From Lepas anatifera (taxonomy: Eukaryota; Arthropoda; Thecostraca; Lepadidae): a DNA stretch of 64,000 nt. Below, in pieces: positions 31,312 through 59,349 of the stretch. Positions within the stretch are counted from its first letter, which is position 1, and the number at the start of each line of letters is the position of its first letter. Below the pieces are notes generated by a model. It made no database searches and was not told where the DNA came from. It saw nothing but the letters and a program-made list of their open reading frames with translations. A program made the translations under genes and the position numbers. The DNA is taken from the NCBI GenBank assembly GCA_034440635.1, contig JAOTON010000897.1, positions 248,001 to 312,000 of the forward strand. The letters are read 5' to 3'.

Positions 31312-31987
31312 AGTGTCGGTTGAGACAGAGACAGTTGCGTCACCTCTGCTGCACCTCCGTACGTGACTCGGCAGCTCGATGTTGGAGCGCGGAGGCAACG
31401 CCGCGCGGTACAGGGTGTCGGTTGTGACAGAGCTTGCGTACCTCTGCTACACCTCCGTACGTGACTCGGCAGCTCGATGTTGGAGCGCGGAGGCAACGCC
31501 GCGCAGGTACAGGGTGTCGGTTGAGACAGAGACAGTTGCGTCACCTCTGCTACACCTCCGTACGTGACTCCGCAGCTCGATGTTGGAGCGCGGAGGCAAC
31601 GCCGCGCAGGTACAGGGTGTCGGTTGAGACAGAGACAGTTGCGTCACCTCTGCTACACCTCCGTACGTGACTCCGCAGCTCGATGTTGGAGCGCGGAGGC
31701 AACGCCGCGCAGGTACAGGGTGTCGGTTGAGACAGAGACAGTTGCGTCACCTCTGCTACACCTCCGTACGTGACTCGGCAGCTCGATGTTGGAGCGCGGA
31801 GGCAACGCCGCGCAGGTACAGGGTGTCGGTTGAGACAGAGACAGTTGCGTCACCTCTGCTGCACCTCCGTACGTGACTCGGCAGCTCGATGTTGGAGCGC
31901 GGAGGCAACGCCGCGCAGGTACAGGGTGTCGGTTGAGACAGAGACAGTTGCGTCACCTCTGCTACACCTCCGTACGTGACTCGGCAG
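31312..31987 (+). repeat. Splice-acceptor array: ~103-bp unit, exon start copied 6 extra times
   Basis: The unit is the intron end plus the first 29 bases of the following GGT exon. Each copy has TACGTGACTC(G/C)GCAG, the acceptor, then CTCGATGTTGGAGCGCGGAG and GCAACGCCG. Exon-like starts are at 31375, 31473, 31576, 31679, 31782, 31885 and the genuine one at 31988; spacing is 103 bp except 98 bp for the first. In the extra copies the exon sequence is followed by CGCAGGTACAG, which itself looks like a 5' splice site. Only the last copy runs on into the full exon. Confidence 0.95.
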
Positions 31988-32205
31988 CTCGATGTTGGAG
32001 CGCGGAGGCAACGCCGTGGACGCCGCGCTGGCCAGCCTGCTCTGCGACGGCCTGGCCAACCCCCACAGCATGGGCATCGGCGGCGGCTTTGTCATGACCT
32101 TGTACAACCACAGTACCGGCCTGGCGGAGTCGCTGATCGCACGAGAGATGGCGCCAGCGGCGGCCGCCAAGGACATGTACGCCTCCAAAGAGCAGGCGCA
32201 GCGAG
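31988..32205 (+). CDS. GGT: GGT exon with substrate-binding Arg
   Basis: Encodes ERGGNAVDAALASLLC, HSMGIGGG and IAREMAP, the highly conserved first half of the large subunit. The Arg of IAREMAP corresponds to the residue that binds the alpha-carboxylate of the gamma-glutamyl substrate in characterised GGTs. The acceptor CGGCAG precedes 31988; the donor is GTGGGT at 32206. The phase is 2 in and 1 out, matching both neighbours. The first 29 bases are the part copied in the upstream array. Confidence 0.93.
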
Positions 32206-32396
32206 GTGGGTGTCTGGCCCTGTGTGTCTTGATGTTTGCGATTTGGGGGTAGTTAAAACGATAAGCCATAACCACTTTGTGTAGCAAACTCGACATATTT
32301 CCGGTAAGATAGATACAGACTTTTTATGTGTAGTGAGTTTACAGTTTAACGGTAAACTCTTTTTTAGTCTCTAGTCTCTACAGTTTAATAGACTTT

Positions 32397-33425
32397 TTAA
32401 CGGTGGGGCGAACCGCGCCCCACCGGGGGTTTGGCACCACCTTCGTCCCACCGAGGGCCATCGATGGCCCCCTTCTAACTCCGAAAATTTGAAGATTAGT
32501 GCAAATATGTAAAGTGCATTAGAAAGCTCGCGTGAAATCTTTAAGAAATTACTGCACATGTCTAAGCGCTCAGGTCAATGTTATAACATCTAGAGGTCAA
32601 GTTAGGTCATCATAGGCTATTTCCACTGAAGTATGCAATGCCTAAGCAACCTGTGCATAGCTCTCATGCCGATAGAACTATTGCAATCTGGTAAAGTACA
32701 TTTAATAATAAAAAGCCAGATCTATTTCCGCTATGTAGAACATAATGACCCCTCGCCAGTGGTTTGAACTCCAGAGGTCAAACCACTGGCCACCCCTCGT
32801 GACCTAATATTACCTGAGGTCACGAAAGGTCAGAAGGTGGCCTTGCCGTATATCAATTGAAAGTCCATAATGAGACAGATACAATAACTTTATTTCAGTG
32901 CTCTGGCTTGATTAGGTCAAAAGTTATCGTCCAAATACTGTTTTGATCCCCTGGTGACCTGTGATGACCTCAGATAGTTCAAAGGGTAACTATCACCTCT
33001 GGGATCCGTGAAAGGGTGTCCAAGGACGTTTTTCTATGCAATCTGAGCAGTTGCGATAATCTTTGTGTCTTTTAGATGATAATTTTAGTTTTCCCCATGC
33101 TTTTTCAATGGGAGAGGTCCCCTCGTGACCTGACCTCAGCTCTCGAAATAGAAAAATCCCGGATATGTACTTTTTAGACCCTGGAGGGGTCATGAAATGT
33201 AGGAAGTTTCAAATCCATCGGCTCAGAAATGTAGCTATGGTAGAGCTCAAAAGTTGAAGTGAGGTGACCTTTGTTGACCTCGCCTGGTGACCTGACCTTG
33301 TGTGACCCGGGGTAAAAATATCAGGGATGATGAAAAAATGATGAAGTGAGAGATCAAGGCAACTGCGCTGCTGCACCTCGTCGTTTTTCTGCTATCCTGA
33401 AAAAGCTTAGGGGGCCATCGATGGC
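32397..33425. mobile_element. TTAA-type MITE (right end lost) rich in AGGTCA
   Basis: Starts TTAA (32397-32400) followed by a GC-rich end with GCGCCCCACCGGGG. The interior aligns in order with 49960-50973: CTAACTCCGAAAAT, GTAAAGTGCATTAGAAAGCT / GCAAAATGTATTAGAAAGCT, and CCATGCTTTTTCAATGGGAG. The right end stops at CCATCGATGGCC without the terminal GC block, so it is truncated. A TTAA target fits the piggyBac superfamily. It contains an exact direct repeat AGGTCA-N4-AGGTCA at 32594-32609. It sits in the GGT intron. Confidence 0.7.
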
Positions 33426-33511
33426 CAAGAACATGATGATGTAGTTTTCCACATTGCGGCAAAGTAGGCTTTAGCTATCAGGTTATGATTCCGTGATGTA
33501 CTGTTTGGCAG

Positions 33512-33713
33512 GCGCGCTGTCTGTGGCGGTACCGGGCGAGATTCCCGGGTACTGGGCGGTACACCAGCGGTACGGCCGCCTGCCCTGGCGCGTCATCTTT
33601 CAGCCCGCCATCAGCATGTGCCGGTTCGGCATTCCGGCCTCCAAGCATGTGGTAGAGGCCCTGCAGAGCCCCACCGTCCGCACGCTGCTCAGTAACGACA
33701 GCTTAGGCCTCGG
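33512..33713 (+). CDS. GGT: GGT exon, SVAVPGE block
   Basis: Encodes SVAVPGEIPGYW and the following helix (YGRLPWRVIFQPAI), both strongly conserved in GGTs. The acceptor is TTTGGCAG before 33512; G + GC makes the joining Gly codon. The donor is GTGGGT at 33714, leaving phase 2. It ends in SNDSLGLG, continuing in the next exon as DIFLKAANKTL. Neither border shows tandem repeats. Confidence 0.92.
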
Positions 33714-34719
33714 GTGGGTGTTCAGTCATTTTTGTGCCGGTTTTTTGGCCATAGCGATGTACCTGACCATACATCGTTGAACACTGCCCCAGAGAAGTTT
33801 CGGACCAGTCATAATTGCCAGATGGTAGGGCTTGTAACCGATATTTAAGAATTTACCTTAAACAGAAGCCTCATTGCATAAAAAGTACTGAGCAATGCGT
33901 TGAAATGCTTGAAATAACATGATGAGGTTACCTTGAACACCCTGCTCCCCTATGAACTGACACTGAACTAGCTGCTGGCCGTGTTCAGCTGTGGCGCGGC
34001 CGTGTTTCCGAGATTGTAACGTCTCCTGCAGATGGTGCTAAGCTGTGCTCTCTAATAGCTGCTGAAAAAACAGCACTTCCCACTCTCGAACGAACCAGTA
34101 GTCGCTCTGATTGAGATGTGTCACATCGACCGGTGTCAATAGTTTTAAGTTACACACGGTTGCCATCAGTTTTGTATCGTGGGACTATTGCAAATATTGT
34201 ACACTAGAGGGAAAATACTTTTTACCGGTGGGACGCAAGCGTCACCACCGGTGAAAAGGATTTTTCCAGTCAATATTTTATCTCCTGGTGCCAAGAAACT
34301 TTCCCCTGTGTAACTCGTTGGAATTGGACCCGTGACTACCCTTTGCACTGACTGATTACAGCATCATTAGATTAAAAAAACTTGCTGAAAACGAGATATT
34401 TTTACATGCAAAGTGTGGGGATGGGATGAGCAAATCCCAGCCTCTCCTATTTTGACGCGCTTTGTAGGAGAGACATTGCTTCTCTTGACGTCGCGCTCCC
34501 TTTGGAGGCTCTGCGTGGCGTCAGTAGATCCCCCGATCGGTGTGTGGCAGGTAGACCCTCAAATCCCTCACCTTTCCATTTAAAGCCTCGATGAGGAGGG
34601 ATAAGGGCCAAAGGGCGCAAAGCGCCAAAGCCTAACGCCTTAGTACAAGGTGGCTGATATCACACGAAAGACGAGCGCATAATTATGTTTTCATCTCTTG
34701 CCGGTTGTTTCACCCCCAG
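33714..34719. other. GGT intron, nothing recognised
   Basis: No gene, SINE or clear TIR. It has a modest inverted repeat around 34216-34256 (TTTTTACCGGTGG ... CCACCGGTGAAAA). Confidence 0.5.
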
Positions 34720-34911
34720 AGACATTTTCTTGAAGGCCGCGAACAAGACGTTGGAGGTGGGTGACGTATTCCGTCGCCCAGTCCTGGCCAACACTCTGGA
34801 GAAAATAGCGGAGGGAGGACTGCAGGCCTACCAGGACTTGGGGGCAAAGCTGGCCGAGGACATTCAGGCACTGGGCGGCATCATCACCCATGAAGATATC
34901 GCAAACTACAC
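34720..34911 (+). CDS. GGT: GGT exon, mid large subunit
   Basis: Encodes LANTLEKIAEGGLQAYQ and GGIITHEDIANYT, matching the family's LA.TLE.IA..G...FY and GGI.T.EDL..Y blocks. The acceptor is CACCCCCAG (ending 34719); the donor GTGAGT at 34912 is near consensus. It ends in phase 2 (AC), which needs a first base from the next exon. The G at 37567 gives Thr-Pro-Glu-Trp, fixing where the next exon starts. Confidence 0.92.
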
Positions 34912-35960
34912 GTGAGTAGAGATGGTGAATGAGGGCTGAAGTCTACGGTGGCGACAATATAGCTGAAGTGCATGGAGCAAAGATGCAAAAAGGTGTGTTT
35001 CTCCGTCTGAAGCTGTGATGTCAACTCTGGCGTGGAATCTACCGCTGGAGGAAAATAACCTCCATGGGCCCCATCATCTAAACTAGAATTAGCCAAACGT
35101 GAGATTTATCATCATATTTAGGCTTTGCTGTCGCGTATGCCTTCCGTCGTGTTCATGTTGAACCTATTATGAAATCCTTGCAATATAATAATGCGCTCCG
35201 AAGATTGCGCTTTGCCTGTCATTACAGTCGACTCTTCGTGGGAACCGTTGAAGATATATTCCATTCCCCTGTGAGTTATTTGCATCGGTGCATTGGACCC
35301 CATGTCATGCTAATTTCCAGGCGACCCCATATGCATGCAAGGGTGTCGCCACGGATTTTCGAGTGGGGGGGATGGTTGGAGCCGGTGGTGAAAAGCTTGA
35401 AAACCCTACGTCCGCTTACATTCGGCATTTGCAATGGTATTTCCAGCCAACAGTGGGGAGGCCAGCTGCCCCAGCCCCCTCCCCCGGTGACGACGCCCCT
35501 GTCTGCATAACAGCAGCAGTTGTGCACAGAGCCGTGGATTTCCAAAAATCATTGGAGGTGCCCAAAATTGAAAGAATGCCAATAACCAATGCACAAAAAC
35601 AAATAGCATGATATGTTTTCTGTTTGGCCCTCACACAGCACTGCTGAAGCAAACAAAACCAATTTTAAGTCCTGAAAATGATAAACAATTTAATTTAAAT
35701 GAATTTGTAACACCAACTCAACGTTTCATTGGGGGTGCCCGGGCACCCCAAAGAGATATAGATCCACATCCCTGGTTGTCTGTCATAAGTCCCAAGGCTT
35801 CTTCTATGCCAATCCTCAAATCAAGGGCAGTGTTTACGACTCACCAACAAAAATACATAGTTCCAAACGAAAATTTATTCGGATGTGAGACCTGATGTTC
35901 AAGTTCGCAAAAACGTTTGCATTTTGCCGTATGTGGACGAAACCAACATTTTAACAAAAT
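34912..35960. other. GGT intron with a possible small MITE
   Basis: At 35338-35501 CAAGGGTGTCGCCACGG and the inverted CAGGGGCGTCGTCACCGG enclose 164 bp, with flanking octamers TATGCATG and TCTGCATA (6 of 8 alike). It is possibly an old hAT-like MITE. The rest is unassigned. Confidence 0.45.
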
Positions 35961-35968
35961 GTGTATAT

Positions 35969-36111
<143 letters not shown>

Positions 36112-36507
36112 ACATTCATGATAAGCAGTCTGTCAGGATCGACAATGGACGAGTAGTAAGACACCAGCTGTATTGACACCGTAAACGTGAAGTTGAATCA
36201 GGCAGAAAAACGCAGGAACTAGTGATACGTCGTAGTAATAAGCTCTTTCAGTAGCCTCATATTTTCATTGATGATATCTTAATAAAAAAATCGACCCTGC
36301 CGAAGCATGAGGCATGTCATGCACGAGTATGCGGATGCAGAATTGCTATACCACCTAAAAATCGTCAGCCCTGAAAAAAGAGTACACCCGGTAATGTTCC
36401 ACGTGATACAAGTGGCGGAGGGTCGGTAAGGAGTGGGCTGAATCTCACAACCCACCTCTGATACCTCTCCTCCTTGTATTTAATCCGCCAGATCTGTAAC
36501 AGCAGCA

Positions 36508-37616
36508 GCTGAAGTGTGTTCCGTCCGTCAGGCCGGAGTGGACGGCGGCGCTGCGAGTGCCGCTGCCGTTCCATCAGCTGAAGTGTGTTCCGCCCGTCAG
36601 GCCGGAGTGGACGGCGGCGCTGCGAGTGCCGCTGCCGTTCCATCAGCTGAAGTGTGTTCCGCCCGTCAGGCCGGAGTGGACGGCGGCGCTGCGGGTGCCG
36701 CTGCCGTTCCATCAGCTGAAGTGTGTTCCGTCCGTCAGGCCGGAGTGGACGGCGGCGCTGCGGGTGCCGCTGCCGTTCCATCAGCTGAAGTGTGTTCCGT
36801 CCGTCAGGCCGGAGTGGACGGCGGCGCTGCGAGTGCCGCTGCCGTTCCATCAGCTGAAGTGTGTTCCGCCCGTCAGGCCGGAGTGGACGGCGGCGCTGCG
36901 GGTGCCGCTGCCGTTCCATCAGCTGAAGTGTGTTCCGTCCGTCAGGCCGGAGTGGACGGCGGCGCTGCGGGTGCCGCTGCCGTTCCATCAGCTGAAGTGT
37001 GCTCCGCCCGTCAGGCCGGAGTGGACGGCGGCGCTGCGGGTGCCGCTGCCGTTCCATCAGCTGAAGTGTGCTCCGCCCGTCAGGCCGGAGTGGACGGCGG
37101 CGCTGCGAGTGCCGCTGCCGTTCCATCAGCTGAAGTGTGCTCCGCCCGTCAGGCCGGAGTGGACGGCGGCGCTGCGAGTGCCGCTGCCGTTCCATCAGCT
37201 GAAGTGTGTTCCGCCCGTCAGGCCGGAGTGGATGGCGGCGCTGCGAGTGCCGCTGCCGTTCCATCAGCTGAAGTGTGTTCCGCCCGTCAGGCCGGAGTGG
37301 ACGGCAGCGCTGCGGGTGCCGCTGCCGTCCCATCAGCTGAAGTGTGTTCCGCCCGTCAGGCCGGAGTGGATGGCGGCGCTGCGAGTGCCGCTGCCGTTCC
37401 ATCAGCTGAAGTGTGTTCCGCCCGTCAGGCCGGAGTGGACGGTGGCGCTGCGAGTGCCGCTGCCGTTCCATCAGCTGAAGTGTGTTCCGCCCGTCAGGCC
37501 GGAGTGGATGGCGGCGCTGCGAGTGCCGCTGCCGTTCCATCAGCTGAAGTGTGTTCCGCCCGTCAGGCCGGAGTGGACGGCAGCGCTGCGGGTGCCGCTG
37601 CCGTCCCATAAGCTGA
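36508..37616 (+). repeat. Splice-acceptor array: 69-bp unit, 16 copies, in frame
   Basis: The unit combines the last 17 bases of the intron (TGTGTTCCGCCCGTCAG) with the first 52 bases of the next GGT exon (from GCCGGAGTGGACGGCGGCGC to AGCTGAAG). Acceptor positions recur every 69 bp from 36531 to 37566, that is 1035 bp or exactly 15 intervals. Because 69 is 23 codons and no copy has a stop in the GGT frame, every acceptor would give an in-frame protein. Copies vary at a few sites (GTGTTCC/GTGCTCC, GAGTGCC/GGGTGCC). The octamer AGCTGAAG occurs in the intron just before the array and in the exon at its end. The other long open frames over this array, on both strands, follow from its GC content and 69-bp period. 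Confidence 0.95.
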
Positions 37617-37819
37617 AGCTGTACTCAGTGCCGCCCCCTGCCAGCGGCGCCGTGATCGCCGCCATTCTGGGTGTGCTGGACGGCCTGCAGCTGACGCCGG
37701 CCCACATGGCCAGCGACCAGCGGCAGGCGCACACCCTCCACCTCATGGCCGAGGTCTTCAAGTTCGCCTACGCACAGCGGAGCCGGCTCGGCGATCCGCG
37801 ATTCGCCGATGTTGACGAG
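37567..37819 (+). CDS. GGT: GGT exon, LYSVPPPASG block (acceptor choice ambiguous)
   Basis: Encodes PEWTAALRVPLPSHKLK, LYSVPPPASGAVIAAIL and HLMAEVFKFAYAQRSRLGDP, ending DVDE. These match the family's Y..PPP.SG...L and H...EA.RFAYA.R..LGDP blocks. The start at 37567 gives the family's usual spacing. Fifteen equivalent upstream acceptors exist; use of the first (36531) would start the exon at 36532 and insert up to 345 residues as repeats of 23. The donor is GTAACC at 37820, phase 0. The foldback element begins 64 bp downstream. Confidence 0.9.
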
Positions 37820-37883
37820 GTAACCGTAACTGATTTGTGCGATTTTTCTCCTGAGTATGCTGTTAAGAGTGAGATGGTCTGTA

Positions 37884-40800
37884 GGGTGGTGCATATTTGA
37901 TGAAGTTTTGAAATTGTTTATAGGTGGGGGTGACTTTTCCCATTATTTGGATCATTCTGAGTCCATTGAAACCAAAATCAGCAAAATCAAATAATTTCTA
38001 GGAGTCGCTCATCGAGCTCAAAGTTTTCGATTTTGACAAAATTGTGCATAAAAACGGACAAAATTGTTTATAAATATTCAACCACATATTGCAGTCTAAT
38101 TCTGACCTTTTCATGTTCAAGAGGGGCTAATTATCTTTCAATCTATGCCAGTTTGACTTGTTTACATTGGTTGGTTCACCTTGCAGGTCATTTTTGTGTA
38201 ACCTTTTACGTTTTCCTGAACTTGGGCCTCAATGCGCCTATACATAGGACAGACAACCCTACAGCTCGAGTTTTCACCACTATTTTTCTTTTTAGGGACT
38301 GCGCAACTGTTGTTTTATACACTAGCGGATTCAGGGGGGATTGAGCCATGGCCCCCAAAACTCGAAATATCATCCTTTGATCCCTACGAAAAAGGCACAT
38401 TTTTTACCATTTTTCTTGCAAAAACACTGCAATTTTCATTGGATACTAATATCTAATCGGTTTTCTTCACGATGTTCACTATTTTAACTCCTCCCCCTTA
38501 GCTGTTGATTTACCCTCCCTAAAAGGTGCTTCCCAAATCCACCAATCCCATTAATCATCTTTAATTGCTTCGAGACACAATTTCTAGAGTAGTTATCGAG
38601 AATTCTCACTATCGATCAAATAACATAGCCTCGGCTGTTCAATAATTTCTCTAAGAACTAGGTCATATCTGTCCTAAACAGATGTGTAGAACCTCGAACT
38701 ATCACAGGAAAAATTACTTGAAAAAATAACATTCCAAAACTCTTTTGAAACAGAAATATAGGACTTGAAAGAAATCAATTCAATCGGAAGCCCAGGCATT
38801 CCCATACCTGGGTCACGAGCCCTATCTGACGCAAAAGTTTCCTCATCCTGGGAATTTTGTAGAAAACGACTGAATACCTGAGGTACGAAACGATTGAAGG
38901 CTTGATGAATTATTTTATGCTCCACTTTTAGGGCGAAGTTATTCATTTTTAGTTTTTTATAGGCTAGGTAAAATTAATTCAGATACAAATGCAGGCGAAC
39001 AGACCTTTTATTACAAAAACGATTACTTGAAAACATTTAACAGCTTTTGAAAACATTGAGATGAAGAGCAGGTTCCAGCCTTTTACCGGGAGAGCTAACA
39101 TATCTCAATAGTAGTTAAGTAGCCTCCATAAATTTTGCCAAAGATACAAAAATAATTGAGTTTCGTAATCAAGATTTGTCAAATAGCAGGAGACCTCAAT
39201 AAAAAATTTCGCGTATCCCCCTTTAACTCAGCCAGGACGCGTCGAAGCAGGTTTGACTGGCTTGTGCCTCATAACACCTGCGTAAGAAAGCACCCTCAGG
39301 AAGTTCCAGCTATTTGACCAGACTCCTCTTTTCATGCAGAATCCATTTTTTCATAGATGCCAAATAAAACAAGCGTCAACAACCCCTTTCTTGACCAACC
39401 GAGGGCATAATATGGCTAATGAGGGATCCAAATCCACACAAGGAGGGGAAGAAAAAGCTGCTCCACTGAGCGTTATTTGGTGGGCCAATCAGCATCTTCT
39501 ATTGGGGCACCAAACTGCCCACAAAATTTCAAGTACTGGCATGCTTCTTCACGCTGTACATAAATCCGTCGACATGCAAGAGCCGTTCGAAGGAACCGTG
39601 GAAAATAGCATAGTGTTCTGGAGCATGGCATGCACTAAGGCAATTTCTAACAGAGGCTGTTTCTACAAGCTTTCACAACTTTGGGATGAGTTGCGTGGTT
39701 TACGAATAGCAACAGTCCCCACCAAATGACACCGCAAGACGCGAGAAGTTCCGGGAAACCTGGTAAAACTTTGAGATATAGGAGCTCCTGATTTCATTGA
39801 AGAGACCAAGAAAAACCGACTGCTCACACCCACCAACAAAACGAAGGACGTCATAGTCTTCTACATACTATACATCTTCTACGATGTGTCCTTCTACATT
39901 TTAGAAGGATATGACCTTCGTTTTTGTATCCGTTATCTCGGCTATGTCCTCCACACCTTTTTAAGCCACGCAACTCCTCCCAAAGTTGTGAAAGCTTGTC
40001 GCAACAACTTCTGTTAGAAATTTTCATAGTGCGCTCCATGCTTCAGAACACCATGCCATCTTCCACGGTCCCTTCGAACGGCTCTTGTCTGTCGACGGAT
40101 TTATTGCACAGCTTGGAAGAAGAATGTCTGTACTTGACGTTTTTTTGGCAGTTTGGTGCCTCAATGCAAGATGCTGGTTGACCCACCAAATACCATTCAG
40201 GGGAGGAGCTTTTACTTCCCCTCTTGTTCGGATTTTGATCCCTGACTACCCATGTTCTGCCCTTGGTTGGTCAAGGAAGGGGTTATTCATGCTTGTTGTA
40301 TTTGGCATCTATGTTAAAATTGATTCCGCAGGAAAAGAGATATCTGGCCAGATAGTTGAAACTTTGTGTGTGTCGGGCTTTAGGGTGGTTCAGTGACTTG
40401 GCTATGTTCCCTTTCTGAAGGTGCTTTCTTACATAGGTGTTATGAGACACAAGCCAGTCAAACCTGCTTTGACGTGTCCAGAATGAGTTAATTGTTTTTC
40501 GAAAAAATAAAGATAACCATCGGTGGATCTGGGAAAAACTTTTTAGGGAGGGTAAATCAACAGCTAAGGGAGAGGGGTAAAAATGGAGTACATCGTGAAG
40601 AAAACCGGTTAGATACTAGTATCGAGTTAAAATCGCAAAAAGCGTTTTTCAAGAAAATGGCCAAAATGTGCATTTTTGTTGGGGGTTAAAAGATGATATT
40701 TCGGGCTTTGGGGATCACAGCTCACTTACCCCCCCCGTAAATCTGCTAGTATATAAGAGCAATTACGCAGTCCGTAAAAAGAGTAATAGTTGTGAAAACT

Positions 40801-41176
40801 CCTGCTGTATGGTTGTCCTATGTATAGGCGCATTGAGTCCAAAGTTCAGGAAAACGTAAAAGGTTACACAAAAATGACCTGCGAGGTGAACAAACCAATG
40901 TAAACAAGTCAAACTAGACCAGATTGAAAGATAATTAGCCCCTCTTGAACATGAAAGGTCAGAATTAGGCTACTATATGTGGTTGAATATTTATCAATAA
41001 TTGTGTCCGTTTTTGGCCCATTTTTTGCAAAATCGAAAACTTTGAGTTTGATGCGCGACCCCTAGAAATTCTTTGGTTTTGCTGATTTTGGTATCAATGA
41101 ACTCAGAATGATCCAAACAATGGGAAAAGTCACCCCCACCTATAAATTTAAAAACTTCATCAAATATGCGCCACCC
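37884..41176. mobile_element. 3.3-kb foldback (long inverted repeat) element, TA-flanked
   Basis: The ends GGGTGGTGCATATTTGATGA and its near-exact inverse, flanked by TA (37882-37883 and 41177-41178), suggest a Tc1/mariner-type target. The arms pair almost throughout: 37884-38560 with 40500-41176, 39210-39330 with 40395-40500, and 39330-39740 with about 39940-40390. The left arm has an extra ~620 bp (38560-39200). The centre is near 39840. No transposase is visible. A transcript across it would fold into a long hairpin. It is in the GGT intron. Confidence 0.8.
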
Positions 41177-41178
41177 TA

Positions 41179-42283
41179 ATGGTCAGGGAAATTATTATCT
41201 ACTCTGGTGGCTCCGAAATTTCAAGATCGTAAAGCCTGGTTATCAGTGTTAATCCAATTTATGCCGAAGCAAGATGTTGCTAAAAATGAGAAGCCGATTT
41301 CACGCGGAGATCTGGAATAAGGAAGATTTTCTGGTCAATCGAAACTAATCTGCGAACGTTTCCGGGATGTTTTTAGATTCGCGAACTGTAACTTGTGCTA
41401 TGTGTTGTAAATGTTTACTCTCCATCACGTCAATTATTAGTGCCCTACGCCGAGTGTTAACAAAATCCAGGGTTTTGGATGAGTGACGGCGCCCACTCAT
41501 CGTTAACTATTCACCCACTGGTCATCAGATGTAGGCGCCGCTGCCAAATTTTCAAACTCGCTGCTTCCGCTTCCTGAGCTAGCTGAGACCGCTGCCGCTA
41601 CTAGCGCTACTTTTTTCGAAATCGTGAAACCTGCGCCCACAACTCCGCTCCTCTGCTGCTCCTTCTTATTAAAAAGCGCCAGGAAAATGCTATCCAAAAA
41701 TTTTGAAAGTTCAAAGTAAAAAAAAAATATTTTATCGCCAAAACATTGGAGCCTTTGCGTGACAGAATTGCTTTTCATTATTCTTATAAAACCAATTTAA
41801 GGAAAACTGCCGCGCCTATCTGTATGTTTCGTCACAAATTAGCAGTTTTATTGTAAGATATGCTAAGTAAATCCTAGATCAAAAACGTAATTCAATGTGT
41901 TTGTTTTTCCATGATTTTTTTATATCAGTGTTTATTTGGGAGTTCTTAGGGGCTGACGATATTGGTAGTGATTTTGAATTCGCTTCTGGCCGCTACCCAC
42001 TACTTCATGGTTTTAGAAGCCACTACCGCTACTCCGCTATCATATGGCGGGTCCGCAATTAGCGAATAGCGGAGTGGCGGACCACCCGGCACTGTCAATC
42101 GCAATTGGTGGCTTAGTATTCTACTCACTTCCATGTTCAATGTCTGTTTTTCCACCTTATCTTGAATAGACACCATTCCTCACATGAGCAGGATCAAGTC
42201 AAGTGGAAAAGAACGACAAGGCTGATTCCTCTTCAGGCACGCCGTCACAAAGCTTGATAATTCACATGAAACGTTTACCTGTC
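41179..42283. other. GGT intron, no gene recognised
   Basis: AT-rich sequence. Near 41985-42085 there are repeats of GCTACCGCTACTCC / AGCGGAGTAGCGG type (TCCGCTATC...GCGAATAGCGG). No ORF with family features. Confidence 0.5.
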
Positions 42284-43110: not shown

Positions 43111-43479
43111 ACGTCGCGCCTTTCGATGGCTCAGGGACGACTGTTGCTCGGCATTTGGTGCGGGGTCCGTGTCCGATTCATATTTTGTGTTGGGATTGGG
43201 ATGGAGTTTGATTGGGCCCAGTTCTCGGGACTCATTTGGAAACACTCGGGTAGTAGGTGCCTTGGCTTTTTTACGAAGCGCTCCTCCTCCAGGGGCTTGC
43301 AGGCAGCGTACTACCGAACTTGAACGTTCCCTGACAAGCTATCGGGCCCGTTTGGGTTTCTTGTTCTATATTACAGTTGCTGATAGTTGTGTATTCGTTG
43401 CGGGGGTCCACCTCAAAAGGGGGGGGGGCAGTATCTCCCTGACCCCCGGTTCCTATGCCTATGCCGCCCAGGGACCGCT

Positions 43480-43884
43480 AAATTATCTCGGAGGGCCCCA
43501 AGGTCCAAACCATGGCTCAGGAACCCAGACCAGTCAGCTCAAGGGCCTAGACAAGTGCATTAGCCTCGGGACCAGCTTATCAAGGGCCCCTACATAAGCA
43601 CAGGACCCCTAGAAGCTCATCACAGGGGAGTTCCAGATTCGCACAGGGTGCCAGATTAGCTTAGGGGCCCGGTTCAGCTCGGAGGTCTCCAGGTCGACTT
43701 ATGTAGGGTCTCAAAACAGCTCAAGGGACTTGTTCAAGCTCACGGATCCCAGCTTAGCTCAATGATGCTAGAACAGTTCAGGGCCCCCATACCAGATCAA
43801 AGGCCCCAGTTAAGCACAGCGGTACCCAGATTAGCTCAGGGCCCCAGCTAAGCTTAGGGGTCCCAGGGTGGCTGATATAGAGTC
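43480..43884. repeat. Degenerate array of element B2, left of the A2 insertion
   Basis: Units of the GCTCAGGGGCCCCAG type, continued after the insertion at 48658-49250. Confidence 0.75.
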
Positions 43885-44889
43885 TCAGAACACAGTGGCA
43901 TAGCCAGGATTCGGCCAAGGAGGGGTCCGACTACCGTCGGGGGGGCCCCAGGCCAGGGGTCCCCTTAGTAACCGGGCCCATCTCCTATATCTTTTGTATA
44001 GTATTTTAACATTATAACATTCACACGAAGGAAATTTTGTTGTGCGTTTTTAGGCATTCATTCTTATTTTGTTTATTGCTTGTTTTTTTCGATCCGACCA
44101 AGTGTTGGTAAACTAAGGTCACAAAATATCAAGGATGACCCATACCTTATATGGTAGCGTGGCTATAATAACAGCTTTGAGCCATATTTCGGGAAGTTTA
44201 ATGTTGATGCGCGCATGATTTTAAACCTGAGTCTACCTCAATTCACTTGGGTAATCAGACATGAAGTTATTGGAGGTCAGTCGTTTTGTGTACGAAGATA
44301 TGATCTTCTACGGGAAATGATTAGCAATTATATCCCGGTGTCGAATCCATGAACTCTTTAATCAGGAAATTTCCAAAGAAACGAAAAAAACGAATAAAGA
44401 TACAAAGGATATAGTAGTGTGTCCCGAACGTTACATAACCTCTATTCCGTCGACAGATCCTGTTGAGATCCAGTTACTTTCTTACCCTTGCTATCTTTTA
44501 AACGAGCAAATTACCAAGTCAAAAGGCGCCCAAGATATTTATCGCCTTGGCTCACTCTGTTATTGTTATTTTCAACCTTTCATACCTATCTTTCTTTTTG
44601 GGATTATGCTTATCAATTTCTGTCATTACCCTTGTTTGTCTGGTTTCCTACGAAAATATTGGAAAGTTGTCTATTTCAGAATATTTAGGAATGTAGTTAT
44701 TGGTGTTAAGCTAATATATCAAAAATTGACTAAAGTGCCAAATTCCCTGTTCGATTTTCTCTTATGGTAAAATTAGATTAATGTTTGCCTTTCCTTCGAT
44801 AATGGTGCCTGATCGACATGTTCCAATTTGTGTCTTTTTTAGTATGCAATAGGGATAGGTACATTTTTTCCGAGGCATATGATTTTGAA

Positions 44890-47800
44890 ATTTTTTATTT
44901 GAGCTCTGGGGCCACCTAAGACCAACACTTGGCGGCGCTCACCAAAGCTAATTTTCGGCCGCTCTCCCGATTAGATCTCAGGGGGTCTCGGAGACCGATT
45001 CACGGCGCCTCTTGATCAAAACTGGGGGGCCCTGAGAATCTCGGGGCTCCTGAGATTAGTTATCGGCAACACCTCTGAGACTAATTATTGGGCCCCCCAG
45101 ATTTGCTCTGGAGGGGGGGCTGGGACTGACTATCGTGGCCATCCAGATTAGCTATTGAGGTCCCCTGAGGCTGTCTTTGGGGTGGGGGGAGGGGGCTGGG
45201 AATGACTTCCGACAGCCCTCTGAGACTTACTCTAGGGCGCCCCTGAGACAAACACCCCGGGGGGGGGTGGAATCACCTCTGAGACTGAGTCTTTGGCGTT
45301 CCTGAGACTGACTCGGAGGTTCCAGATTAGCTCTCGCGGGCCTAAGGCTAACTCCGGGCCCGTGAGACCAAAACTCGGGAGCACCTCTGGAAATTACACT
45401 CAGAACCCCGAGATTAACTCTCGGATGTCTCTGAGACTGACAACCGGGAGCCCTCTGAGACTAACTTTTGGGTGCTCCCTGAGATTGACTCTCGGGGCCG
45501 CTTATTTTTTTAAAATAAATTTTAGTTCAAGTTGTTCCTGGTAAGGCTGCTGGCGTTGGAGTCTCACTAAAGTCATCAAGGGACTTGTCACGGAGACCCC
45601 GACCCCACCACCCGAACGAGCAACTCCCTCAATGGAGGGTTAATTTAGAAGCCAAAGTTTAACGTCCCACAAAGCACAGGGACGGCCGCCCCGCTCAGGT
45701 CATCCTCTCACCAGTCAGTTGCCAGCCGACCTGTACGTCGGGTAAACTATTGAGCGCCGGAGCGTCTCAGGGGAACCGATCCCAAGCCTGGACATGCACT
45801 GCCACTGCATGCTTCTGAGCAGCGGGCCGGAGCCCAACGCTCTACCAACTGAGCTACCGGGGCGGCTCAGTTATACCAAAACTCGGGGGGGCACAGCCTG
45901 AGGCATCTCGAGGGCTCCCAAAATTACCCCTCTGGGGCCCCCTGAAACCAGCACTATGCGGATCAAATTAGACTAACTCTCGGACCCCCGGATTAACTCT
46001 CGGGGCCACCTGAAACTAAATATTGACTCCTGAGAGAGAAGCCCGTGAGACTATGAGGGCCCCCTGAGACCGACTCTTGGGGTGCTCTGAGACTGACTCT
46101 TGGGGTTCTCTGAGACAGACTCTCAGGGGGACCCCGAGACCGAATCTCGGGTTTCCCTAAGACAGACTCTTGGGGTCCCCTTGGCCGACTCTTGGGGTTC
46201 TCTGAGACTGACTCTCAGGGCCCCCCTGAAATAGACTATGTTGCAGGGCCCTGAGAACCACTCTCTGGGGGCCCCTGAGACTAGCTCGGCCCCCTCCCCT
46301 GAAACAGACTCCCGCGACCCCTGATACCGAATTTTGGGGCCCCTGAGACCAACCCTCTGGGGCCCCTAAAATCTACTTTCGGGGGCCTTGAGACCGACTC
46401 TCAGGGCGGGGGCCGTGAGGCCGACTCGGGACGCCCTGAGAACGAATCTTCAGGGGCCCCTGAGACTGACTCTGGGGGCCCCGTGATCAGAGAATCCTTT
46501 GCAGTGGTTCAGATTGGCCCAAGGGGTGGGGGTCTGCGGACGCCTAGGCCCCCTTGGCTACACCACTGCATCCACACTTTCGGGGGCCCTCTGAAATCAC
46601 CATTTGGAGGCCCCTAAAATAATTGCTCCCCCTAGACCAATACTCCGGAGCCCCTTGATGCTGATGCCCGGGGCGTCCTAAGACTAAGCTCGGGGTCCCA
46701 CTTAGATCAGGCTCAGGGGCACCCTTAGACCCATGCTCGCGCTTTTCTCAGGAGTAACTCGACACCGATGTTCCGGGGCCCTCAAGATCAATATTTCGAG
46801 CCCCCCCCGAGACTAATACTCGGTGCTCTGGAGCCCCTCGATGCCGATGCTCGGGGGTCCTGAACCCAGGCCTGGGGGCCCCTGGGACTAAACTCTGGGT
46901 CTCATGAGGCCAATATTCGTGCCTCACTCATGAGTCCCTCGATATCAATAGTCGGGGGCACCCCGAGGGGGGCCCTGAACCCCTGAGACCAAGCTCAGGG
47001 GCCCCTGAGACCAAGCTCGAGGGGACCCTGAGACCAAGCTCGGATGCTCCCTGAGACCAAGCTCGAGAGCCCCTGACACCAAACTCGGGGTTCCTTGAGA
47101 CCAAGCTCGAGACCCCGTGAGACCAAGATCGAAAGGCCCATGAGACCAAACATCGAAAGGCCCATGAGACCGAGCTTGCCCCCCCCCTAAGACCAAGCTC
47201 GGTTGTCCCCTGAGACCAAGATCGGGGGCCCCTGAGACCAAGCTCACGGACCCCCGAGATCAATATTCGGTATTCCAGAGCCCTCGATACCAATGATCGA
47301 GGTCCCCTGAGACCAAGCTCGGAAGGCCCGTGAGACCAAGCTCGGGGCCCCTGAGTCCAAGTTCAGGGGTCGCCTGAGACCACGCTCGTGGGGCCCTGAG
47401 ACAGACCAAGCTCTGGGGCACCCTGAGACCAAAATCGAAAGGCCCGTGAGACCAAGATCGAAAGGTCCGTGAGTCCGAACTCAGGGGGCCCCCGAGATCA
47501 ATGTTCGGTACTCTGGAGCCCTCGATACCGATGATCAGGGGCCCCTGAGACCAAGCTCGGGGGTCCCCTGAGACCAAGCTCGGGCGTTCCCTGAGACTAA
47601 GCTCGGAGGGCCCCTGACACCGAGCTCAGGGCCCCTGAGACAAAGCTCGGGGGCGCTGAGACCAAGCTCGGTGGCCCCCTGAGACCAAGATCAGGCCCCC
47701 GAGACCAATGCTCGTGTTTTCCAGTGCATACGGTCAGCGTTATGAATCAGATGCCCTCGGATGCCCCCTGAGGCCAAGCTCGAGGGCCCCTGACACTAAG

Positions 47801-48600
47801 CTCGGGGAGAGGGGGCCTGAGACCAAGCTTGGGGCATTCCTGAGACCAAGCTCGGGGTCCCCTGAGACCAAGCTCAAGGGCCCTGAGACCAAGCTCGGGG
47901 TTATCTGAGACCAAGCTCGGGGGGCCCCTGAGACCAAGCTCGGGGGCCCTGATTCCAAACTCGAAGGGCCCCCTGAGACTAAGCTCGGGAGCTCCCTGAG
48001 ACCAAGCTCGGAGGGCCCCCAGACACAAAGCTCGGGGGCCCTGAGACCAAACTCGAAGGGCCCCCTGAGACCAAGCTCGGGAGCTCCCTGAGACCAAGCT
48101 CGGGGGTCCCCTGAGACCAAGCTCGGGGTTATTTGAGACCAAGCTCGGAGGGTTTCCTGACACCAAGCTCAGGGAGCCCCTGAGACCAAGCTCGGGGGCC
48201 CTGATTCCAAACTCGAAGGGCCCCCTGAGACTAAGCTCGGGAGCTCCCTGAGACCAAGCTCGGAGGGCCCCCAGACACAAAGCTCGGGACCCCTGAGCCC
48301 AAGCTCAGGGGGCCCCTGAGACCAAAATCGAAAGGCCCGTGAGACCAAGATCGAAAGGCCCGTGAGACCGAGCTCGGGGGAAGGGGCTCTGAGACCAAGC
48401 TCGGGGGCCCTGAAGCCAAGCTCGGGACCCCCTGAGACTGAGCACAGGGGTCCCCCAAGATCAATATTCGGTACTCTGGAGCCCTCGATACCGATTATCG
48501 GGGGCCTCCTGAGACCAAGCTCGGGAGGCCCCCTCCCCGAGACCAAGCTCAGGGGCACCCGAAATCAATTTTTGTGTTTTTAGTGCATAAGGTCAGCCCA
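44890..48600. repeat. Internal tandem array of element A2
   Basis: Diverged units on the CCCCTGAGACTGACTCTCGG theme passing into CCCCTGAGACCAAGCTCGGG, interrupted by a SINE at about 45525-45880. A block of about 240 bp is itself duplicated (47935-48025 resembles 48185-48275, with the same order of variant units), showing recent local amplification. Confidence 0.9.
45525..45880 (-). mobile_element. tRNA-derived SINE inside the A2 array
   Basis: On the minus strand it begins CCCCGGTAGCTCAGTTGGTA then GAGCGTTGGGCTCCGG, a clear tRNA 5' half with the A box. A GATCGGTTCC-like B region follows, then about 250 bp of non-tRNA body ending in an AT-rich tail next to 45510-45530. It interrupts the satellite cleanly. 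It is a different family from the CAACAGGG-core SINEs. Confidence 0.7.
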
Positions 48601-48657
48601 AGGGGAGCCCGTGGACTCCTGAGACCCCCCTTCCCTGGCTACACCACTGTCAGAACA

Positions 48658-49250
48658 TCTCAAGGGGCCCATTCAAGCTCACAGCCGCCCGGTCAGTGGC
48701 TGTAAAGCCTTATAGGGGTCCCAGACCATCTCAGGGGCCCTCAGTTCAACACAGGGGCCCATATTAGCTCTGATGACCAGATAAACTTAAGGGCCCGGAT
48801 CATCCAGGGGCCCCTTGTCGGCATATTTGGGGTTTCAGAACAGTTCAGGGTTTCAATTAAAGCTTATAACAGAATTTCAGAGCATGGGCCCTATTCCTGT
48901 GCAGGGGTCTCAGATACGTTTAGGGTCTTCTGTGCGTCACAGGGGATCCAGATTAGCTCAAGGGACATTATTAACTTTACGGTCCCAGCTCAGCTCAGGG
49001 GCCCCCAGGTCGGTGGATATAGGTTCTGGCCAACTCACGGGGCCCTGTTTAAGGTTACGGCTCCTAGCTCAGTTTAGGCACCCAAGAACAGTTCATTCTG
49101 CCCAAACCATCTCAGGGGCGCTCATTTCAGCTCAAAGGACCCAGATTAGCTCGTATGGCATCAGAGGCCAGTTCAGGGGCCCCGAGAAGCTTAGGGGACC
49201 TTAAAATCAACTCATAGAACCTCAACTTAGTTTAGGGGCACCGGTAAGTT
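48658..49250. repeat. Degenerate array of element B2, right of the A2 insertion
   Basis: Continuation of the array at 43480-43884; units such as CAGCTCAGGGGCCC recur. Confidence 0.75.
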
Positions 49251-49404
49251 TAACGGGGTTCCGGGGCAAGCTATCGGGCCAGTTTGAGTTTCTTGCTTGA
49301 TATTACAGTTGTTGATATTCTTATCTCCGTTGCGGGGCCCATCCCAGAAAAGTGGGGGGCCAGTGGCCCCCTGGCCCCCCGGTTCCTACGCCTATGATAG
49401 TGAG

Positions 49405-49959
49405 TACAAAGGCATAAATTTATCACAAATACTTTTTTCCTAGGGCAACATTTTCCACTCCATCATTAGAAACTTTTCCCTGTATTTTCCCCTCCGCAAC
49501 CAGGTGCAAAAACTATGTTGGGTCGCTGATTTCATCCATTATCATTTTCTCAAGTGGGTCACAGCAGATACCGTCCAAGTTGCCCAGGTAGCATGAAACC
49601 ACGTCAGCATTCCAAAAGGGTGTGGAAGGAAAACTGCGGAAAACAACCGCTCCCCCGGCGTCTGCCCTATCGTGGGGTGGCAGCACTAAACCAGAGTGGG
49701 CTTCAGCCGGGTGATCCACATTTTAGGACCAGTCTTAGGAATTTTATAAAATCTCCGGCATGGTTGGGCTGATTTGATGTGGGGTTTGGTGCTGCGTGAT
49801 GTGCGAGTGCATAGGTGTTGATATTATGTCTTTTACGTCATCTTTTATTGTTTTATCATGGCGACGTGGACAAGTGAAAAGCCCGCCTGAGTGGACCTTG
49901 TTTGAATATATCTGAATCTAAATCTGATTCCGTTGAAAGTTATTTTGCTTAAAAGCTCT
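49405..49959. other. GGT intron, no gene recognised
   Basis: No family-like ORF. Unique-looking sequence between element B2 and the next TTAA element. Confidence 0.5.
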
Positions 49960-50973
49960 TAACCCGCGCCCCACCGGGGTCCGGCGCCACCCCGTGGCCA
50001 TCGTTGGCCCCCTCTAACTCCGAAAATATAGACGTTAGCGTAAATCTGCAAAATGTATTAGAAAGCTCGCGTGAATTCAGTAAGAAATTACTTCACATGT
50101 TTTAGTGCTCAGGTCAATGGTTTGACCTCCAGAGGTCAAATTAGGTCAAGATCGCCTATTTTCACTGAAATATGCAATGCTTAAGCAATCTGGGCATAGC
50201 TCTTATACTATTAGAGCTATTGAGATGTGGTAAAGTACTTTGGATAGGAAAATGTCAGACCTTTTCCCGCTATGTGGAACGTAACGACCTCCCGCCAGTG
50301 GTTTAACCTCTAGAGATCACCTGGTGACCTAAGATGACCTGAGGTCACGAAAGGTCAGAAAGTGACATTGTTGTATATCAAACGAAAGCCAGTGACGAGA
50401 CATACACGATGGTGTTTGATTCAGCGCTCTAGCTTATATAGGTCAAAAGTTATTGTCAGAATACTGTTTTTGTCCCCTGGTGACCTTGGATGACCTTGGA
50501 GAGGCCAAAGGGCAAATATGGCCCTGGAATCCGTGAAAGGGTGTCCAAGAACGCTTTTCTGATCAAATCGAACATTTTCAATCGTTTTTTGTGACTTTTA
50601 GATTACAAGACAGCTTTTCCCCATGCTTTTTCAATGGGAGAGGTCGCCTCGTGACCTGACCCCAGGTCACGAAATCGAAAAATCCCGGATATACATCTTG
50701 TAGACCCTGGGGGGTCATGAAGTGTAGAGAGTTTCAAATCGATCGATATCGAAATGTAGCTCTTACAGAGCTCTAAAGTTGAAGTGAGGTGACCTTGGTT
50801 GACCTCGTCTGGTGACCTGACCTTGGGTGACCCGGGGTAAAAAATTCAGGGATGGTGGGAAAATTATGCAGTGAGAGGTAGAGCTCTCAATCGCGGTGCT
50901 GCGCCTTGTAGTTTTTCTGCTATTCCGGGAAAACATTGGGGGGCATCGATGCCCCCGGTGGGGCGAGAGTTAA
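49960..50973. mobile_element. TTAA-flanked MITE, intact, rich in AGGTCA half-sites
   Basis: TTAA at both ends (49960-49963 and 50970-50973) with inverted GC-rich termini: CCCGCGCCCCACCGGGG and (inverted) CTCTCGCCCCACCGGGGG. 1014 bp, no ORF. It is colinear with 32397-33425. It carries AGGTCA-N4-AGGTCA at 50133-50148 and a TGACCT-N6-AGGTCA pair near 50656-50673. The TTAA target suggests piggyBac-type mobilisation. Confidence 0.8.
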
Positions 50974-51434
50974 GGTTTTCTGTCCGAAACTTGCATTAGA
51001 TTTTTATCTTCAGAAACTTTTAAAATACAATTTTAGAAGTTGAAGCAACATGGTGTCTTAGGACCTTGAGAAAATACTTATGTGTGTTTGCTGTAATTGA
51101 CACTGAGATAAGATATTTAGTTATGTTTGCTCAAGTCAATCGGGGGGGGACAAGGGCTCAGTTTCATATCACTTACGTCGAAATGATCCTCCAACTTGCT
51201 ATTGCCTTTCTACTTGCTGGGCAGAAAGTGATAACTCGCAATGCCGTACAAAGTGGAGACAACATCGATGTCGTGTAACAACACCCGTTGTTGTTACACG
51301 ATATCCATTCCTGGTCAGCTCTCTCTAATCACGTAACAGGCTCCTAAAGCCTTACACACACCACGGATGGTAACTAATAAAATTCCTACACTGGCTGTGA
51401 TTTGACGCTGAGGGTTTTGTTCCCGCCACCTCAG
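50974..51434. other. GGT intron with a perfect 12-bp hairpin
   Basis: TCGTGTAACAAC at 51271-51282 pairs with GTTGTTACACGA at 51290-51301 over a 7-nt loop. Nothing else is recognised. Confidence 0.7.
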
Positions 51435-51625
51435 ATCGTGCGCAACATGACTTCGGAGGCGTACATGGCGGACGTGCGGCGGCGGGTGCGGGCGGAGGGG
51501 GTGCTGGGCTCTCCGGAGGCCTACGGCGCCAGGTTCCACAGCGCCAACGAGAGTGGCACCGCGCACATCAGCGTGGTGGACGCCCAGGGCAGTGCCGTCG
51601 CCGTCACCAGCACCATCAACCTGCG
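51435..51625 (+). CDS. GGT: GGT exon with autoprocessing/catalytic Thr
   Basis: Encodes IVRNMTSEAYMADVRRRV and GTAHISVVDAQGSAV, then TSTINL. In characterised GGTs the Thr of GTAH is the cleavage site that separates the subunits and becomes the N-terminal nucleophile of the small subunit. It is intact here. The acceptor is CCACCTCAG before 51435; the donor is GTAGGT at 51626, leaving phase 2. The last 50 bases of the exon plus 4 intron bases are the unit of the array that follows. Use of any later donor would read an in-frame TAG at the first junction, so only the first donor gives full-length protein. Confidence 0.93.
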
Positions 51626-54171
51626 GTAGGTAGACGCCCGGGGCAGTGCCGTCACCGTTACCAGCACCATCAACCTGCGGTAGGTGGACGCCCAGGGCAG
51701 TGCCGTCACCGTTACCAGCACCATCAACCTGCGGTAGGTGGACGCCCAGGGCAGTGCCGTCGCCGTCACCAGCACCATCAACCTGCGGTAGGTAGACGCC
51801 CGGGGCAGTGCCGTCACCGTTACCAGCACCATCAACCTGCGGTAGGTAGACGCCCGGGGCAGTGCCGTCACCGTTACCAGCACCATCAACCTGCGGTAGG
51901 TGGACGCCCAGGGCAGTGCCGTCACCAGCCCCATCAACCTGCGGTAGGTGGACGCCCAGGGCAGTGCCGTCACCGTCACCAGCACCATCAACCTGCGGTA
52001 GGTAGACGCCCAGGGCAGTGCCGTCACCGCACCAGCACCATCAACCTGCGGTAGGTGGACGCCCGGGGCAGTGCCGTCACCGTTACCAGCACCATCAACC
52101 TGTGGTAGGTGGACGCCCAGGGCAGTGCCGTCACCGTTACCAGCACCATCAACCTGCGGTAGGTAGACGCCCAGGGCAGTGCCGTCACCGTCACCAGCAC
52201 CATCAACCTGCGGTAGGTGGACGCCCAGGGCAGTGCCGTCACCAGCCCCATCAACCTGCGGTAGGTGGACGCCCAGGGCAGTGCCGTCACCGTCACCAGC
52301 ACCATCAACCTGCGGTAGGTAGACGCCCGGGGCAGTGCCGTCACCGTCACCAGCACCATCAACCTGCGGTAGGTGGACGCCCAGGGCAGTGCCGTCACCG
52401 TCACCAGCACCATCAACCTGCGGTAGGTGGACGCCCAGGGCAGTGCCGTCACCGTTACCAGCACCATCAACCTGCGGTAGGTAGACGCCCAGGGCAGTGC
52501 CGTCACCAGCACCATCAACCTGCGGTAGGTGGACGCCCAGGGCAGTGCCGTCACCGTTACCAGCACCATCAACCTGCGGTAGGTAGACGCCCAGGGCAGT
52601 GCCGTCACCAGCACCATCAACCTGCGGTAGGTGGACGCCCAGGGCAGTGCCGTCACCAGCACCATCAACCTGCGGTAGGTGGACGCCCAGGGCAGTGCCG
52701 TCACCGTCACCAGCACCATCAACCTGCGGTAGGTAGACGCCCGGGGCAGTGCCGTCACCAGCACCATCAACCTGCGGTAGGTGGACGCCCAGGGCAGTGC
52801 CGTCACCGTTACCAGCACCATCAACCTGCGGTAGGTAGACGCCCAGGGCAGTGCCGTCACCGTCACCAGCACCATCAACCTGCGGTAGGTGGACGCCCAG
52901 GGCAGTGCCGTCACCGTCACCAGCACCATCAACCTGCGGTAGGTAGACGCCCAGGGCAGTGCCGTCACCGTCACCAGCACCATCAACCTGCGGTAGGTAG
53001 ACGCCCAGGGCAGTGCCGTCACCGTCACCAGCACCATCAACCTGCGGTAGGTGGACGCCCAGGGCAGTGCCGTCACCGTTACCAGCACCATCAACCTGCG
53101 GTAGGTAGACGCCCAGGGCAGTGCCGTCACCAGCACCATCAACCTGCGGTAGGTGGACGCCCAGGGCAGTGCCGTCACCGTTACCAGCACCATCAACCTG
53201 CGGTAGGTAGACGCCCAGGGCAGTGCCGTCACCAGCACCAGCACCATCAACCTGCGGTAGGTGGACGCCCAGGGCAGTGCCGTCACCGTCACCAGCACCA
53301 TCAACCTGCGGTAGGTAGACGCCCGGGGCAGTGCCGTCACCAGCACCATCAACCTGCGGTAGGTAGACGCCCAGGGCAGTGCCGTCACCAGCACCATCAA
53401 CCTGCGGTAGGTGGACGCCCAGGGCAGTGCCGTCACCGTTACCAGCACCATCAACCTGCGGTAGGTAGACGCCCAGGGCAGTGCCGTCACCGTCACCAGC
53501 ACCATCAACCTGCGGTAGGTGGACGCCCAGGGCAGTGCCGTCACCGTTACCAGCACCATCAACCTGCGGTAGGTAGACGCCCAGGGCAGTGCCGTCACCG
53601 TCACCAGCACCATCAACCTGCGGTAGGTGGACGCCCAGGGCAGTGCCGTCACCAGCACCATCAACCTGCGGTAGGTGGACGCCCAGGGCAGTGCCGTCAC
53701 CGTCACCAGCACCATCAACCTGCGGTAGGTGGACGCCCAGGGCAGTGCCGTCACCGTTACCAGCACCATCAACCTGCGGTAGGTAGACGCCCAGGGCAGT
53801 GCCGTCACCGTTACCAGCACCATCAACCTGCGGTAGGTAGACGCCCAGGGCAGTGCCGTCACCGTTACCAGCACCATCAACCTGCGGTAGGTAGACGCCC
53901 AGGGCGGTGCCGTCACCGTTACCAGCACCATCAACCTGCGGTAGGTGGACGCCCAGGGCAGTGCCGTCACCAGCACCATCAACCTGCGGTAGGTGGACGC
54001 CCAGGGCAGTGCCGTCACGCCAGCACCATCAACCTGCGGTAGGTGGACGCCCAGGGCAGTGCCGTCACCGTTACCAGCACCATCAACCTGCGGTAGGTAG
54101 ACGCCCAGGGCAGTGCCGTCACCGTTACCAGCACCATCAACCTGCGGTAGGTAGACGCCCAGGGCAGTGCC
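51576..54171 (+). repeat. Splice-donor array: 54/48-bp unit, roughly 50 copies
   Basis: The unit is the last 50 bases of the GGT exon plus GTAG of the intron: it opens GTGGACGCCCAGGGCAGTGC, passes CACCATCAACCTGCG and ends GTAG. Most units are 54 bp; a subset lacks one GTTACC/GTCACC hexamer and is 48 bp. Each carries CTGCG followed by GTAGGT, a usable 5' splice site. The array fills nearly 2.6 kb of the intron start and ends in a truncated unit at 54171. Variants (GTAGAC/GTGGAC, CAGGGC/CGGGGC, GTTACC/GTCACC) are interspersed, suggesting repeated unequal exchange. Long open frames on both strands here (up to about 730 codons) are repeat artefacts. Confidence 0.95.
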
Positions 54172-54417: not shown

Positions 54418-54603
<186 letters not shown>

Positions 54604-59318: not shown

Positions 59319-59349
59319 ACGGCCACTGCGTTCGCGAGCCACAGGTACG

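Follow-up and report, generated by a model that had tools for sequence, protein, structure and literature searches.

The window analysed here is a 64,000-nucleotide stretch of the Lepas anatifera genome (C846:248001-312000) that carries seven exons of a gamma-glutamyltransferase (GGT) gene, and three splice junctions of this gene lie in tandem arrays that copy the junction itself. The assembly that was searched comprises 1,044,440,039 bases in 2126 contigs. The gene was assigned to GGT because 67 residues translated from its exon A match the heavy chains of solved gamma-glutamyltransferases (E 4e-18). Among the best 120 of 4315 protein matches, the nearest were from Amphibalanus amphitrite (67% identity) and Pollicipes pollicipes (65%). 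The remaining 118 were at most 48% identical, with the Branchiostoma entries at 47-48%, an order that points to a barnacle outside these two genera and speaks against amphioxus as the source.

When the Pollicipes protein was used in a tblastn search, one upstream exon, six exons at 31988-54577 and three exons 3' of the window were located. All exons in the window are on the + strand. The first one located, which precedes exon A, lies at 23830..23959 and was placed by tblastn and open-frame joining; the N-terminal exon was not located. Exons A (31988..32205), B (33512..33713), C (34720..34911), D (37567..37819) and F (54453..54577) were placed by protein homology, and exon E (51435..51625) ends with TSTINL and two bases of the following codon. 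The last three exons correspond to tblastn matches 1935-2072, 2422-2538 and 3249-3395 of the stretch beyond the window (L004). The ten exons give 19 borders, of which the 14 in the window have exact splice sites, placed from protein homology and AG/GT rather than from RNA, and the five beyond it were taken from match ends. Spliced in silico, the seven exons in the window form a single open frame of 436 residues. The coding exons have a GC content of 65% (83% at third positions), compared to 44-48% in the introns with arrays 1-3 excluded.

Array 1 (31313..32016, + strand) was resolved by Tandem Repeats Finder (TRF) as 6.9 copies of a 103-bp unit, which corresponds to seven copies when cut into units. 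Each unit consists of an intron tail, the acceptor GGCAG| and the first 28 bp of exon A, and the final copy continues into the genuine exon. Array 2 (36506..37618, + strand; TRF 69 bp x 16.1, 16 copies when cut) is built in the same way from a short intron tail, the acceptor GTCAG| and ~43-52 bp of exon D, and it also runs into the genuine exon with its final copy. The 8-bp AGCTGAAG at the intron end of array 2 is repeated in exon D at the point where the final copy stops, as expected for a duplication joining two short direct repeats. Array 3 (51575..54193, + strand; TRF 54 bp x 49.8, 50 copies when cut into units of 54 or 48 bp) repeats the last 50 bp of exon E together with the donor |GTAG. 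Here, the genuine exon end is the first copy, whereas the final copy is degenerate and its donor is gone. Thus, the genuine exon is the intact, outermost copy in all three arrays. The splice dinucleotide was retained in all 7 copies of array 1 (AG), in all 16 copies of array 2 (AG) and in 50 of the 51 matched copies of array 3 (GT), and the string CTGCGGTAGGT or CTGTGGTAGGT is present at 49 of the array 3 donors. The arrays of 7, 16 and ~50 units described in the original prediction, each crossing a genuine GGT junction, were therefore recovered both by TRF and by unit cutting.

Junction arrays are borne by three of the 19 GGT borders (two acceptors and one donor). TRF found none at the remaining 16, in agreement with the earlier statement that other borders of the gene are free of them. 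The GGT introns also contain arrays that touch no border, at 28253-30755 and 46062-48438 of the window and at 1980-2151 of a further stretch (L003). A transposon origin of the units was rejected from the genome search with array 1, whose unit gave seven matches, all inside array 1. The Pollicipes GGT model lacks ~46 residues at the position of the array 2 exon, and the Amphibalanus model ends at TSTINL, the final residues before the array 3 donor. Both gene models could have been broken by similar arrays.

To see how junctions fare elsewhere, exons were sampled by family and regardless of repeats, from the CCT chaperonin (PF00118), the ABC transporter membrane domain (PF00664) and the GGT paralogues. 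All 54 CCT exon matches and 24 of the 33 ABC matches were fetched. The nine ABC matches left out comprise one single-exon gene and eight matches on contigs C1795 and C524 that resemble second copies of genes on C1052; the same ABC exons occur on these three contigs, which suggests alternative haplotypes or recent copies. The 26 GGT family matches comprise seven in the window gene, 16 that were fetched and three that were left out. A panel of cytochrome P450 exons was not used, as many of its top matches are long single open stretches.

Clear junction-spanning arrays, all at acceptors, were found in three CCT stretches (82 bp x 3.6 in L038, 54 bp x 7.5 in L043, and 134 bp x 2 at 355 in L052) and twice in one ABC stretch, L022 (39 bp x 12, and a second array with a 60-73 bp unit and 11 matched copies including the genuine one). 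The two copies in L052 match at 97%, and by eye this duplication has no short end homology of the kind formed by AGCTGAAG in array 2. In a further CCT stretch (L040, 28 bp x 19), the acceptor is crossed by just 4-8 exon bases, and three CCT arrays (L051, L052 at 2503, and L055) abut the acceptor, ending within ~15 bp of it by eye. The ABC case L030 (254-419, 78 bp x 2.1) is doubtful: starting from an upstream AG, its two near-identical 78-bp copies can also be read as a single open exon, and it may be either a two-copy junction array or an in-frame duplication within an exon.

None of the 16 fetched GGT paralogue matches has a spanning array. A GGT paralogue (L056) does carry an 11-copy donor array of 33 bp at the exon preceding exon A, an exon that is outside the family match list. 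In a myosin gene, where five of 79 matches were examined in a single stretch (L067) chosen for dense exons and long open-frame figures, there are two donor arrays with units of 34 bp and 22 bp. Another array of this myosin gene, on the reverse strand at 3256-3710, ends just before the next exon. Elsewhere (C1580 181295-186771), one myosin exon (family positions ~377-436) occurs in four successive copies, resembling mutually exclusive exons. Two inverted GGT paralogue copies at C244 688495-818880, which are not alleles of the window gene, each have a 33-bp array near an acceptor, with 14.5 copies in one and at least 24.9 in the other. When the flanks of 19 arrays, the three GGT ones and 16 others, were scanned for codon bias, one further acceptor-side candidate beside a predicted exon (L016 1929-2043) and one doubtful case (L015) emerged; most others have no strong coding signal alongside. 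The recurrence of the same structure in CCT, ABC transporter, myosin and GGT paralogue genes means that, contrary to the original prediction, the window gene is not singled out. It also rules out chance in a single gene. The original prediction was right in not attributing the arrays to chance.

This recurrence on different contigs bears as well on whether the arrays are repeats that were collapsed or expanded during assembly. The copy numbers are indeed those of the assembly, and a few units have indels resembling read errors (31415-31513). However, the units differ among themselves, and the arrays range from near-identical copies to one with 0.68 of adjacent base pairs kept. We therefore consider an assembly artefact highly improbable.

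The three GGT arrays are most probably minisatellites of the type termed mirage, i.e., tandem duplications across splice junctions that have expanded into the intron and are near-neutral. The units join exon and intron bases at real junctions, their outermost copy is the genuine exon, and other genes share this structure; the mode of expansion, the site used in splicing and the near-neutrality are what we infer. The founding event would be a local tandem duplication, in place, of a segment crossing the junction, after which slippage or unequal exchange would have lengthened the array on its intron side. Splicing is predicted still to use the site that directly adjoins the intact exon. Tandem duplications confined to an exon would change the protein and be eliminated. 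Where a border is crossed, one intact exon and one working site would be left, and arrays of this kind would survive because both remain.

Several observations weigh against this reading, and the first of them come from the splice sites. Site usage is predicted rather than taken from transcripts. In junction-centred windows, which are biased toward their own middle, retention of the splice dinucleotide exceeded that of the other columns in 11 of 13 arrays, equalled it in one and was lower in one, and in whole-unit alignments of eight arrays the splice pair was above the mean in seven of nine. Array 2, moreover, is open from every acceptor, so that its inclusion in the protein is possible.

Together with the presence of AG or GT in most copies and the 16 in-frame acceptor options of array 2, the retention figures would suit selection that keeps the arrays as redundant splice sites or splicing regulators. 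Against this, 31-100% of adjacent pairs in the whole-unit alignments were kept at least as well as the splice pair, which was uniquely best kept in none of the aligned arrays. In the oldest and most decayed array (L022 2436-3098, nine copies aligned), the splice pair was the least kept, with 0.33 compared to a mean of 0.68. The computed consequences of splicing point in the same direction. In array 1, a stop follows from any of the six upstream acceptors, so that the frame is kept from the last acceptor alone; in array 3, 48 of 49 donors lead to a stop, the exception being the first. Full-length GGT thus needs the exon-contiguous site in both arrays, because the interior sites give stops. In array 2, the variable sites are mostly amino-acid-changing (five, compared to two silent, among seven assessed by eye). 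Dinucleotide retention is better matched by near-neutral decay than by selection, although weak constraint is possible. Selection for many redundant splice sites, which had been offered as one explanation of the arrays, is accordingly not well supported, since the inner sites of both array 1 and array 3 run into stops and the dinucleotides are at most slightly better kept. As an account of the arrays, it appears distinctly unlikely.

Array 2 could instead be a coding repeat, by which a GGT variant would carry a 23-residue segment in as many as 16 copies. Its unit length fits (69 = 3 x 23), each of the 16 acceptors keeps the reading frame and meets no stop, and the product encoded in the window would range from 436 to 781 residues. 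When translated in the exon frame from the first site, array 2 is open and arrays 1 and 3 are not. This openness is weak evidence, however, because array 2 is also open in two further frames, one on each strand. Its copies differ chiefly at amino-acid-changing positions, as noted above, and the segment is single in the Amphibalanus GGT and missing from the Pollicipes model. On this evidence, a coding repeat is unlikely. A unit length that is a multiple of three was considered as a sign of coding and found to be uninformative, as it occurs in six of 12 spanning arrays by hand count.

The other points against the mirage-type reading concern whether junctions are hit more often than other sequence. 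The background consisted of 16 hand-picked stretches of ~10 kb (L006-L021; 159,546 bp), eight of them on the window contig, and arrays occupy 8.0% of it. In a junction-copy test, a site was counted as lying in a repeat when the 30 bases surrounding it recurred within 350 bp. A rough rule placed 88 of 99 acceptors and 89 of 99 donors, myosin included; the test missed some arrays, e.g., the 34-bp myosin array, and it matched L030 at a guessed site. By this measure, six of the 88 placed acceptors, L030 included, one of the 89 placed donors and none of the 99 exon midpoints were in a repeat. The corresponding share was 8.8% among 4000 points of the background and 13.7% among 2635 points in introns. 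By coverage, then, acceptors resemble ordinary noncoding sequence (P 0.71 against the sampled points), donors are depleted (P 0.004) and exon midpoints are free of repeats (P 0.0002).

Coverage counts all copies of an array, whereas a border can be caught only by the first duplicated (founding) unit and not by later copies. The background chance that a point lies in a founding unit is 0.69%, from which 1.30 cases are expected among 188 borders, or 1.48 when matched for GC content. The L067 myosin arrays and the L056 donor array were excluded from this test. The number observed was five when only clear cases were counted, six with L040 and seven with L030, with P of 0.011-0.018, 0.002-0.004 and 0.0004-0.0009, respectively. 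For the window gene, the three arrays at 19 borders give P ~3e-4 by the same chance; this gene was chosen beforehand as striking. Hence, the excess at junctions rests on founding-unit counting, because coverage shows no enrichment. The observed cases were classified by hand, the sample is small, and several borders come from shared genes.

Permutation gave a similarly divided picture. In the CCT genes, seven of eight arrays touch acceptors, compared to 1.4-1.7 expected, and none of 5000 shuffles reached seven under either scheme (P 0.007 and 0.003 for acceptors and donors jointly). In the ABC genes, three of eight arrays are at acceptors, a number short of significance (P 0.19 and 0.08). When both families were pooled, 10 of 16 arrays were at acceptors and none at donors, with P <=0.0002 for acceptors and P 0.06 and 0.005 for both types of site combined.

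The coverage figures for acceptors and exons are what one would expect if junctions had no special link to the arrays, i.e., if minisatellites arise anywhere in this genome, which is rich in repeats, exonic ones are purged and border-crossing ones survive. This explanation differs from the mirage-type reading solely in denying a hotspot, and it accounts for the acceptor coverage and for the repeat-free exon midpoints. It sits less well with the five to seven founding units at 188 borders where 1.3-1.5 were expected, GC-matched background included, and uniform origin alone does not explain the depletion of donors. We regard it as a serious possibility that falls somewhat short of an even chance. 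With moderate confidence, founding-unit counting puts the excess of hits at junctions over other points at about three- to five-fold. The proposal in the original prediction of a process that favours junctions is partly supported, by founding units and not by sequence coverage.

Beyond the window gene, a bolder and less likely reading is that junctions in this barnacle lineage may be hotspots of minisatellite birth, with a few percent of junctions arrayed, and that this lineage may be a second, independent one with mirages that feed sliding, new and lost introns. If so, chaperonin and myosin genes, too, would have fresh or decaying self-arrays at their junctions, and some would be AG|GT ladders removable unit by unit, a continual raw material for intron change. 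How introns are gained and slide has long been debated; one route put forward, with few recent examples, is tandem duplication across a junction. Because array ages would extend from two copies at 97% in L052 to the decayed array in L022, the route would be observable and the new spliced introns per array could be counted. In practice, barnacle gene models may break at arrayed borders.

The window also contains repeats of other kinds. A 37-bp minisatellite of 61 copies lies at 20497-22734, with no strong coding signal alongside in the codon-bias scan, and some of its units (20600-20700) resemble uncorrected read errors. Dispersed GC-rich arrays with 22-23-bp units of the CCCCTGAGACCAAGCTCGGGG type are present in the window at 29118-30755 and 46062-48438 and in a background stretch (L019 3805-4935); this unit is thus common to two contigs, unlike those of the junction arrays. 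By eye, the open frames at 57915-62777, 5455-6324 and 24410-25486 resemble a retroelement of the gypsy type, with gag, protease, reverse transcriptase and integrase, together with two further reverse-transcriptase pieces.

As far as the listings of open-licence papers go, junction arrays of many copies have not been described in a crustacean, and the words 'tandem' and 'minisatellite' do not occur in the main text of either of two papers on barnacle genomes (PMC8917513, PMC8270832). Related cases have been described in other organisms. In potato, an intron is reported to have been gained through a tandem duplication crossing an intron-exon border (PMC4974935). The barnacle GGT arrays share this type of duplication. 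In potato, however, a single duplication led to a new spliced intron, whereas the barnacle loci have arrays of many copies. Polyubiquitin genes are reported to contain tandem arrays of dual-specific AGGT splice sites (PMC10809524). AGGT is likewise repeated in arrays 3 (49 occurrences) and 1 (five), where dual 5' and 3' use is a candidate function suggested by the motif. The differences are that array 2 contains no AGGT and that the units of the polyubiquitin gene UBC are coding.

The closest counterpart is found in amphioxus, for which the original report on Adh is said to be that of Canestro in 2002. The initial view that the arrays are without described precedent does not hold, as two papers describe mirages, i.e., minisatellites that repeat intron/exon borders, in the amphioxus genes Adh3 and the globins BflGb6 and BflGb9, among others (PMC3087553, PMC3902484), with PGBD5 added and troponin C cited in the second (PMC3902484). 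The likeness to the GGT arrays is close: the unit crosses the exon-intron border, both 3' and 5' borders are involved, many copies carry splice signals, and several genes are affected. The barnacle arrays likewise join exon and intron bases at the junction and keep an intact exon as the end copy. The amphioxus mirages come with normal splicing by reverse transcription PCR and with allele-length data, whereas the barnacle arrays are known from assembly sequence. In contrast to the amphioxus cases, the arrays in GGT, CCT and the other genes occur in a barnacle and in conserved housekeeping genes, one of them has ~50 copies, and three are in one gene. The barnacle arrays are therefore a known kind of repeat, present in several genes of a phylum other than that of the described cases, which suggests that the amphioxus mirage is no chordate oddity.

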